From positions 1-55,907 of the forward strand of contig JAQXIT010000109.1 of NCBI GenBank assembly GCA_029007925.1: a stretch of 55,907 nt of DNA. The letters are read 5' to 3'. Position 1 is the first letter of the stretch. Every line of letters begins with the position of its first letter. This document shows positions 43,691-46,457 of this stretch, piece after piece. Source of the stretch: Bacillota bacterium (lineage in GTDB: Bacteria > Bacillota > Clostridia > Oscillospirales > Oscillospiraceae). The notes under the pieces were generated by a model. It saw nothing but the letters and a program-made list of their open reading frames with translations. It had not been told where the DNA came from and did no database searches. The position numbers and the translations under genes are program-made.

Positions 43691-44824
43691 TTACTTTGTG
43701 ACCCAATTCCCGGTGGCAAGGCAATTCAGATAGCTTTCGATGAAGGGATCCAGCGCTCCGTCCATGACGCCGTTGACGTTGGCGGTCTCGCAGCCGGTGC
43801 GGGTGTCCTTCACCAGCGTGTAGGGCATGAATACATAGTTGCGGATCTGGCTGCCCCACTCGATCTTCTGCTGGACGCCCTTGATGTCGGAAATCTTGTC
43901 CAGATGCTCCCGCTCCTTGATCTCCACCAGCTTGCTGCGCAGCATCCGCAGACAGGTCTCCTTGTTCTGGAACTGGCTCCGCTCGGTCTGGCAGGACACC
44001 ACGATGCCGGTGGCCTTGTGGATCAAACGGACGGCGGAGGAGGTCTTGTTGATATGCTGACCGCCGGCGCCGGAGGAACGGTATACCTGCATTTCGTAGT
44101 CCTCGGGCTTGATCTCCACATCCTGGCTGTCGTCCTGGATATCGGGAATCACTTCCACGGCGGCGAAGGAGGTCTGCCGCCGGGCGTTGGCGTCGAAGGG
44201 CGACACCCGCACCAGACGGTGGACGCCGTTCTCCCCCTTCAGGAAGCCGTAGGCGTTGACGCCCTCGATGAGGATATCCGCGGACTTGAGGCCGGCCTCG
44301 TCGCCCTCCAGATAATCCAGAATTTTGTAGGTAAAGCCGTGGCGCTCCGCCCAGCGGGTATACATCCGGTAGAGCATCTGGCACCAGTCCTGCGCCTCGG
44401 TGCCGCCGGCACCGGCATGGAAGCTCATCAGGGCGTTGTTGCCGTCGTAGTGGCCGGTGAGCAGGGTTTCCAGCCGGCAGGATTCCATCTCGGCGGTCAG
44501 GGTCTCGAAGCCCTCCTTCAGCTCCGGCAGCATGGAGTCGTCGTCCTCCTCGGCGGCCATTTCGCAGATGGTCATCAGGTCATCCCATGTGGACACCATC
44601 TTCTCGTACATTTCGATCTTGGATTCGGTCTGCCGGCACTTGACCACGATCTTCTGGCTCTTTTCGGGATCGTCCCAGAAGCCGGGCGCCTCCTGCATGG
44701 CATGGTAGCGCTCCAGCTCGCTGCGGAGCCCCTCCAGATTCAGAGAATCCGCCAGACCGTCCAGCGCCGGCCGGCAGTCGTTGAGTTTCTGCTTGTAGCT
44801 GTCAAATTCGATATTCATGGGCAT
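43691..44824 (-). CDS. prfB: Peptide chain release factor 2
   Basis: GGQ motif SSGAGGQHINKTSSAVR; SPF anticodon-like motif RVSPFDANARRQTSF; uninterrupted single frame. Confidence 0.95.
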   Translation of the reverse strand: MPMNIEFDSYKQKLNDCRPALDGLADSLNLEGLRSELERYHAMQEAPGFWDDPEKSQKIVVKCRQTESKIEMYEKMVSTWDDLMTICEMAAEEDDDSMLPELKEGFETLTAEMESCRLETLLTGHYDGNNALMSFHAGAGGTEAQDWCQMLYRMYTRWAERHGFTYKILDYLEGDEAGLKSADILIEGVNAYGFLKGENGVHRLVRVSPFDANARRQTSFAAVEVIPDIQDDSQDVEIKPEDYEMQVYRSSGAGGQHINKTSSAVRLIHKATGIVVSCQTERSQFQNKETCLRMLRSKLVEIKEREHLDKISDIKGVQQKIEWGSQIRNYVFMPYTLVKDTRTGCETANVNGVMDGALDPFIESYLNCLATGNWVTK

Positions 44825-45290: not shown

Positions 45291-45319
45291 TTGACAGATG
45301 CCGTTTTTTTCGTTACAAT
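45291..45319 (+). promoter_or_regulatory. Consensus sigmaA promoter of tRNA-Arg
   Basis: TTGACA (45291-45296), 17 nt, TACAAT (45314-45319). Confidence 0.85.
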
Positions 45320-45333
45320 ACGATGGTACATAT

Positions 45334-45410
45334 GCCCCAGTAGCTCAGTTGTATAGAGCGTCCGCCTCCTAAGCGGAAGGTCGGAGGTTAGAGTCCTCTC
45401 TGGGGTGCCA
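45334..45410 (+). tRNA. tRNA-Arg(CCT) with encoded CCA
   Basis: GCCCCAG TA GCTC AGTTGTATA GAGC G TCCGC CTCCTAA GCGGA AGGTC GGAGG TTAGAGT CCTCT CTGGGGT GCCA; anticodon CCT. Confidence 0.95.
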
Positions 45411-45414
45411 TAAG

Positions 45415-45446
45415 CCTGGATCCCTCGGGATCCAGCTTCTGTTTTT
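45415..45446 (+). terminator. Intrinsic terminator after the tRNA
   Basis: CTGGATCC-CTCG-GGATCCAG-CTTCTGTTTTT. Confidence 0.7.
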
Positions 45447-45467
45447 ACAAACAGGGAGGTTATGTTT

Positions 45468-46457
45468 ATGAACAAGACCTTTTACCTGGAGACCGGCTCC
45501 GACGACCCCGCCTACAATCTGGCCTTCGAGGAATATGTGCAGGCCCACCGCCGGGAGGGCAATTATCTGATTCTCTGGCAGAACCGGAACGCTATCATCA
45601 TCGGCCGGAACCAGAACACCCGGGAGGAAATCAACCGGGAGTTTGTGGAAGCCCACGGTATCCGCGTTATCCGCCGCAACACCGGCGGCGGAGCCGTGTA
45701 CCACGACATGGGAAATCTCAACTACTCCTTCATCACCGACGCCGGAGATCTGACCCAGCGAACCGGAACCCTGTTCACCTCCCCTGTGGTCAAAGCTCTG
45801 CGGGGTCTGGGGCTGGACGCGGAAACCTCCGGGCGCAATGATATTCTCGTCTCCGGCCACAAGGTCTCCGGCATTGCCGAGCATCTGATGCAGGGACGAA
45901 TCCTCCACCATGGCACATTGCTGTTCGATTCCGACCCGGCCATGATCGCCGGTGCTCTGAACCCGGATCCCACCAAGTTCCAGTCCAAGAGCGTCAAGTC
46001 CGTCCGCAGCCGGGTGGGCAACATCCGCAGCTTCCTGCCCTCTGACATGGATATGCAGAGCTTCTGGAACTACCTGAAGGTGGCGCTGGCGGAGGACGGC
46101 ATCATCCCCACCTCCCTGACCGACGAGGAGTTGGAAGGCGTCCGGGCGCTGAAAGCGGCAAAATACGACACCTGGGAGTGGAACTACGGCAAATCTCCCA
46201 AGTACCAGACCGAGTGCCGCCGCCGTTTCCCCGGCGGACTGCTGGAACTGCATCTGTCCGTAGCCGGCGGCAAGATCAGCGAGCTGGAGATTCTGGGCGA
46301 TTTCATGTCCCTGACCAGCGTGGAGCCTCTGAAGCTGGCGCTGCTGAACTGCCCCTATCAGGAGGCGGACATCGCCGGAGTTCTGGATCAGTTCCCCCTG
46401 CAGCGGATTCTGGGTGGCATTACCAAAGAAGAATTCCTGGAAACCATTCTTTCCTGA
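45468..46457 (+). CDS. lplA: Lipoate-protein ligase A
   Basis: NLAFEEYVQ...LWQNRNAIIIGRNQNTREEIN...VIRRNTGGGAVYHDMGNLNYSFI...SGHKVSGIAEH. Confidence 0.95.
   Translation: MNKTFYLETGSDDPAYNLAFEEYVQAHRREGNYLILWQNRNAIIIGRNQNTREEINREFVEAHGIRVIRRNTGGGAVYHDMGNLNYSFITDAGDLTQRTGTLFTSPVVKALRGLGLDAETSGRNDILVSGHKVSGIAEHLMQGRILHHGTLLFDSDPAMIAGALNPDPTKFQSKSVKSVRSRVGNIRSFLPSDMDMQSFWNYLKVALAEDGIIPTSLTDEELEGVRALKAAKYDTWEWNYGKSPKYQTECRRRFPGGLLELHLSVAGGKISELEILGDFMSLTSVEPLKLALLNCPYQEADIAGVLDQFPLQRILGGITKEEFLETILS

Follow-up and report, generated by a model that had tools for sequence, protein, structure and literature searches.

The tertiary pair G19-C56 of the tRNA elbow is usually taught as near-invariant. 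A natural tRNA with altered elbow bases is the staphylococcal cell-wall tRNA-Gly, in which the elbow pairs are lost and which is redundant for translation. Tycheposons are integrative elements with a complete tRNA at one end. The canonical elbow pair is contacted by the ribosome and by processing enzymes (Zhang and Ferre-D'Amare, 2016; PMC4810234). Among the systems that use tRNA genes as integration sites, tRNA-dependent lysogeny was described for actinobacteriophages (Guerrero-Bustamante and Hatfull, 2024; PMC10865867), and for the tRNA-targeting islands of Islander a 5′ fragment was found to be left by only 159 out of 3,919 (PMC4383910). A search of the open literature found no mention of natural U19-A56 tRNAs, which may nevertheless have been noticed before.

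The tRNA-Arg(CCT) Gene and Its Elbow

The analyzed stretch of DNA (the window, 55,907 nucleotides in length) contains one tRNA gene, a tRNA-Arg(CCT) in the neighborhood of prfB. The following features were identified:

45334-45410, + strand: tRNA-Arg(CCT), the sole tRNA gene in the window (ARAGORN; Rfam RF00005, 65 bits, full model)
45368-45370, + strand: anticodon CCT of tRNA-Arg(CCT)
45408-45410, + strand: encoded CCA of tRNA-Arg(CCT)
45352, + strand: U19 in the D-loop, a G in most tRNAs (sequence; congener alignment)
45390, + strand: A56 in the T-loop, a C in most tRNAs (sequence; congener alignment)
45353, + strand: A20, the main arginine identity determinant, which is kept (sequence; role according to PMC9976931)
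45366-45373, + strand: anticodon loop CTCCTAAG, in congeners the short core where integrative elements split the gene
45291-45319, + strand: sigma-70-type promoter TTGACA-17-TACAAT with 11 of 12 matches (upstream sequence conserved at congeneric copies)
45416-45435, + strand: hairpin resembling an intrinsic terminator (sequence)
43691-44824, − strand: prfB (release factor 2), the conserved neighbor of tRNA-Arg(CCT) in the genus (Pfam PCRF, RF-1)

With its cloverleaf, CCT anticodon, identity elements A20 and C35, and CCA end, the gene is a tRNA (RF00005) of isotype Arg(CCU). The D-loop was determined to be A14 G15 U16 U17 G18 U19 A20 U20a A21 and the T-loop U54 U55 A56 G57 A58 G59 U60, and the unmatched elbow letters of the RF00005 alignment fall at the sites 19 and 56. 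Since both loops have the same lengths as those of the canonical congeners, an alignment shift is excluded and U19 and A56 are truly located at the 19-56 tertiary position. The swap had been proposed in a sequence-only reading of this DNA and is real according to ARAGORN, RF00005, the alignment with related genomes and the loop lengths. Compared to the canonical elbow (PMC4810234), the position, the pairing partners and the expected stacking are the same and G18, U55, R57 and A58 are kept, whereas the pair itself is U-A in the window tRNA and G-C in the canonical form.

The arginine tRNA determinants for ArgRS, which include A20 (PMC9976931), are intact in the window tRNA (A20, C35, U36 and G73). 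The promoter, the terminator-like hairpin and the encoded CCA that the earlier reading had listed are all present. The tRNA-Arg(CCT) is probably expressed and functional. When the RNA was folded without tertiary pairs, the cloverleaf was not the minimum.

Directly 3′ of the tRNA, lplA (lipoate-protein ligase, Pfam LplA-B_cat) is located at 45462-46457 on the + strand. This gene was not found adjoining tRNA-Arg(CCT) in the flanks of the first-compared relatives.

Covariation of Positions 19 and 56 in the Genus

Using a strict pattern, a U19-A56 tRNA-Arg(CCT) was detected in 20 out of 136 genomes of the genus, and a pair common to 20 genomes excludes a sequencing error. The identical 77-base gene was also found in an independent named record (L118). 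A generic U19-A56 pattern, open to any tRNA of the same D-arm type, matched only Arg(CCT) in the genus.

For the analysis of covariation, 58 congeneric Arg(CCT) genes were matched by a pattern that allows any base at positions 19 and 56. G-C was found in 37 and U-A in 20 of these genes, followed by a single C-G (G097) and no mismatched combination, which gives three Watson-Crick pairs at one locus in the genus. Random re-pairing of the 58 genes resulted in a maximum of 46 paired in 100,000 shuffles, a contrast that is inflated by relatedness. The two positions are thus complementary and covary, and the claim of the sequence-only reading that Watson-Crick pairing is kept was borne out here as well as in the phage tRNAs analyzed below. 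The same counts agree with its view that the double change is compensated and maintained, and is due neither to decay nor to sequencing error.

A near-identical allele with C15 and A48, where the usual Levitt pair is G15-C48, recurs next to prfB in scattered species (G084, G145, G071, G027, G010, G096 and others), and some of the copies have C55 for U55. Such variation elsewhere in the tertiary core fits weak constraint with the 19-56 pairing kept.

Copy Number and Codon Demand

In the source assembly, which is 81% complete, one Arg(CCT) copy was found by search, and Arg(TCT) and Arg(ACG) have a canonical elbow. A second, canonical Arg(CCT) was not found in this assembly, and given its completeness of 81% a missing second copy is possible. 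The window tRNA resembles the staphylococcal cell-wall tRNA-Gly as a natural tRNA with altered elbow bases. In contrast to the latter, the 19-56 pair is kept and no redundant canonical isoacceptor was found in the 81% complete assembly.

In nine genes of the window, 11 out of 193 Arg codons are AGG, which Arg(TCT) is probably able to read by wobble. The rarity of this codon together with the wobble reading implies a low demand on tRNA-Arg(CCT).

Distribution of U19-A56 in Bacteria and Phages

A scan of one genome per species resulted in at least 116 stretches with U19-A56. Among the matches listed, 81 of 116 are tRNA-Gly(GCC) of Saccharibacteria, and outside this group the pair is found almost only in tRNA-Arg, namely Arg(CCT) in Oscillospiraceae, Acidobacteria, Mollicutes and some Proteobacteria, Arg(CCG) in Bacteroidales and Arg(TCT) in Pseudanabaena. 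The exceptions among these matches are two tRNA-Ala (Saccharibacteria) and three tRNA-Met (Pacearchaeota). In the 11 Saccharibacteria genomes examined, the U-A tRNA-Gly(GCC) was the only GCC match within the reach of the pattern, which speaks for normal decoding by tRNAs with this pair. Other Saccharibacteria tRNAs were found to have G19-C56 or A19-U56.

The U19-A56 pattern was also identified in 58 viral contigs. tRNA-Arg makes up 33 of the 44 distinct viral U19-A56 tRNAs (75%) compared to 34 of 141 canonical-pattern tRNAs (24%), which corresponds to an odds ratio of 9.4 (p = 2e-9) in phage samples that share lineages. A19-U56 is commoner than U19-A56 and was found in at least 120 viral contigs, followed by C19-G56 in 21. 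The mismatched forms are rarer, with 14 for U-C and 19 for G-A, the latter representing only 5 distinct tRNAs. Among the matches listed, nearly half of the distinct viral A19-U56 tRNAs are tRNA-Arg. One prophage-type tRNA-Arg(TCT), mismatched with G19 and A56, recurs in many isolate contigs and may represent an intermediate or a different elbow solution.

The 907 other tRNAs on the same contigs, from which the pattern-selected tRNAs had been removed, served as a sample free of selection by the pattern. As these contigs were chosen for holding an unusual tRNA, percentages do not equal population frequencies for the 857 G-C, 30 A-U, 6 U-A and 4 C-G pairs and the 10 combinations that are not complementary. 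Non-canonical Watson-Crick pairs were thus present in 40 out of 907 phage tRNAs, compared to at most 7 in 5,000 shuffles.

Displaced tRNA Halves and Integrases Beside prfB

The prfB regions of 118 relatives were compared. tRNA-Arg(CCT) adjoins prfB in both U-A and canonical congeners, and by this shared adjacency the two kinds of allele occupy one locus. In about 20 relatives, the intact tRNA is preceded by displaced 5′ halves that derive from other alleles of Arg(CCT). All of them stop at the anticodon loop (CCTCCTAAG, CTCCTAA(G)) and continue into one of a few recurrent sequences, and the intact tRNA-Arg(CCT) follows the displaced half at a distance of 42 to about 90 bases. A displaced 3′ half of the A56 type was identified in G008. 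In G017, two contigs contain the parts of one split tRNA, GCCCCAG...TCCGC as 5′ half and GCGGA...CTGGGGT as 3′ half, whose acceptor and anticodon strands are complementary. Since G017 keeps both halves of one tRNA, the intact gene there is not a repaired host gene. A displaced 3′ half at the far end of the element was not found before the contig ends in G089, G106, G081 and G122.

A tyrosine integrase (PF00589, PF14659) is encoded directly downstream of the intact tRNA and convergent to it in G077, G081, G089, G105 and G106. In these genomes the integrase is followed by a small HTH_17 gene, which looks like an excisionase. The same arrangement of tRNA and integrase was found in L119, which is a Pseudoflavonifractor, and in G044 and G052 from other families of the order. 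In such relatives a complete Arg(CCT) lies between the displaced 5′ half and the integrase.

Two tandem displaced 5′ halves precede the intact tRNA-Arg(CCT) in G044, G052 and G006 (L664, L666 and L659, respectively), pointing to repeated insertions of elements into one anticodon loop. The genome of G044, from another family, consists of a single contig.

The U-A allele was brought in over a displaced G19 half in G089 (with integrase), over a displaced C15-type half in G090, and in the Pseudoflavonifractor L119 (displaced half and integrase). It was replaced in G087 and G147, in which a displaced U19 half is located beside a canonical intact allele. A displaced U19 half was also found in G006, and the C19-G56 allele of G097 likewise lies behind a displaced half. 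An enrichment of U-A beside visible displaced halves was not supported, with only 2 out of about 21 in the genus. The host promoter in G089 precedes the displaced half, and no promoter was seen by eye in the gap of 60-odd bases before the new tRNA, which is thus probably read from the promoter of the replaced gene.

The congener elements share the complete carried tRNA with Tycheposons, a likeness by description and not by sequence comparison. As in tRNA-dependent lysogeny (PMC10865867), the resident tRNA is split by the element, which contributes an entire tRNA in its place. Judged by the arrangement of the locus, the mode of integration is that of tRNA-dependent lysogeny, a likeness that rests on the adjacent tyrosine integrase in the eight genomes named above, the short core in the anticodon loop and the carried tRNA, with the host tRNA not rebuilt (both halves in G017). 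The differences to the described system are the host group and target (Oscillospirales and tRNA-Arg(CCT)), the position of the replacement tRNA, which follows the displaced 5′ half and directly adjoins attL, and the tandem displaced halves left by repeated rounds. In addition, phage Fionnbharth has its own tRNA promoter (PMC10865867), whereas none is evident in the inspected gap. Similar to the islands of Islander (PMC4383910), in which anticodon-centered sites are common, displaced tRNA fragments and an integrase mark the ends. In classical islands, however, the split gene is made complete again by a half copy, whereas a complete tRNA is supplied here.

Exchange and Descent at the prfB Locus

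The identity of the tRNA and the identity of the adjacent prfB were found to be uncorrelated (r = 0.05, n = 65 genomes). The window tRNA-Arg(CCT) is identical to that of G121, with prfB genes that are 76.5% identical, and is only 77% identical to that of G144, though the prfB of this genome is the closest (87%). On a prfB tree, which is a quickly built tree of one gene beside an integration hotspot, the U-A state requires 15 changes compared to a shuffled mean of 19.

The window contains one copy of CTCCTAAG; no displaced half, no tRNA fragment and no integrase match was found in it, and it thus lacks the marks of an element of the tRNA-dependent-lysogeny type. Most U-A alleles of the genus are located in the same clean setting, without a half or an integrase. 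Comparison of the genome sequences shows exchange of the tRNA at the prfB locus for the genus only; as the window holds no remnant of an element, we infer for the source genome that its allele was acquired in the same way. Element-borne exchange at the locus explains the patchy distribution of U-A.

Origin and Role of the U19-A56 Allele

The window gene is likely a functional and ordinary tRNA-Arg(CCU) with a U-A elbow, which represents one allele of an element-exchanged pool at the prfB locus. In the genus, integrative elements recombine at the anticodon-loop core and cut the resident tRNA in two. Next to a convergent integrase and HTH gene, and downstream of the displaced 5′ half, they supply a complete new tRNA-Arg(CCT), which may depend for its transcription on the promoter of the gene that was split. 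Since the tRNA is exchanged as a whole, the compensated double change could enter a recipient genome without a G-A or U-C mismatched intermediate there. A low decoding demand for AGG may make the gene tolerant of such alleles, and the allele of the window would belong to this exchanged pool. Most likely, the double change first appeared in tRNAs that are little needed or carried by elements, in which the constraint would be weaker, and it may have been kept because U-A is isosteric with G-C.

Alternatively, the pair could go back to two successive mutations in the genus ancestor, in a weakly constrained minor tRNA that elements target by coincidence. This vertical origin is unlikely. U-A and G-C species do share the locus beside prfB, AGG is rare, and the variation at other tertiary positions (C15 with A48, C55) fits relaxed constraint, but entire alleles with both of their acceptor strands were swapped, in both directions, and displaced halves stayed in place. 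Moreover, sister species differ (U-A in G121; G-C with a displaced U19 half in G087), and the identities of tRNA and prfB are uncorrelated. As the sole explanation, vertical evolution is contradicted by the displaced halves and the discordance of tRNA and prfB. An artefact of sequencing, assembly or alignment has practically no probability: although the source is a metagenome assembly of 164 contigs, the pair is carried by 20 genomes, the identical gene of L118 and the loop lengths agree, and the independent assemblies refute it. Decay to a pseudogene was rejected on the basis of the 20 genomes and the 0 mismatches among 58 genes.

Exchange alone does not account for the over-representation of tRNA-Arg. 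Another conceivable origin is a switch of positions 19 and 56 in element or phage tRNAs-Arg that evades a host nuclease, a modification enzyme or another reader of the elbow, with the chromosomal copies descending from them. The tRNA-Arg excess among phage U19-A56 tRNAs and the occurrence of all three alternative Watson-Crick pairs point in this direction, but the phage samples share lineages, and Saccharibacteria have the swap in a chromosomal tRNA-Gly(GCC), while Acidobacteria, Bacteroidales and Pseudanabaena have it in tRNA-Arg, so that this origin is rather improbable. Equally speculative is the wider idea that phage and element tRNAs, above all tRNA-Arg, systematically adopt other 19-56 Watson-Crick pairs and thereby escape recognition of G19-C56 by a host factor such as a defence nuclease or an enzyme of modification or quality control; if true, chromosomal U19-A56 alleles such as that of the window would be captured counter-defence tRNAs. 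The sequence-only reading had suggested a possible specialized or translation-attenuated isoacceptor, comparable to the staphylococcal cell-wall tRNA-Gly, which is very unlikely in view of the present results. The contacts of the ribosome and processing enzymes to G19-C56 (PMC4810234) and the need of at least one enzyme that modifies the T-loop for C56 as a determinant (PMC7912444) would be in line with attenuation. Against it stand the kept pair, the intact ArgRS determinants, the single Arg(CCT) found in the 81% complete assembly, the Saccharibacteria with U-A in the only tRNA-Gly(GCC) seen, and the replacement of canonical and U-A alleles by each other at one locus.

The U19-A56 swap is a fully compensated and recurrent variant, and all four Watson-Crick combinations of positions 19 and 56 occur naturally. 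They represent a natural experiment on the elbow contacts (ribosome, RNase P, TruB, ArgRS), some of which may recognize the bases themselves and others only their pairing. Elements that destroy the tRNA of a host and deliver a complete new copy provide a concrete path by which compensated tRNA alleles can cross between species.
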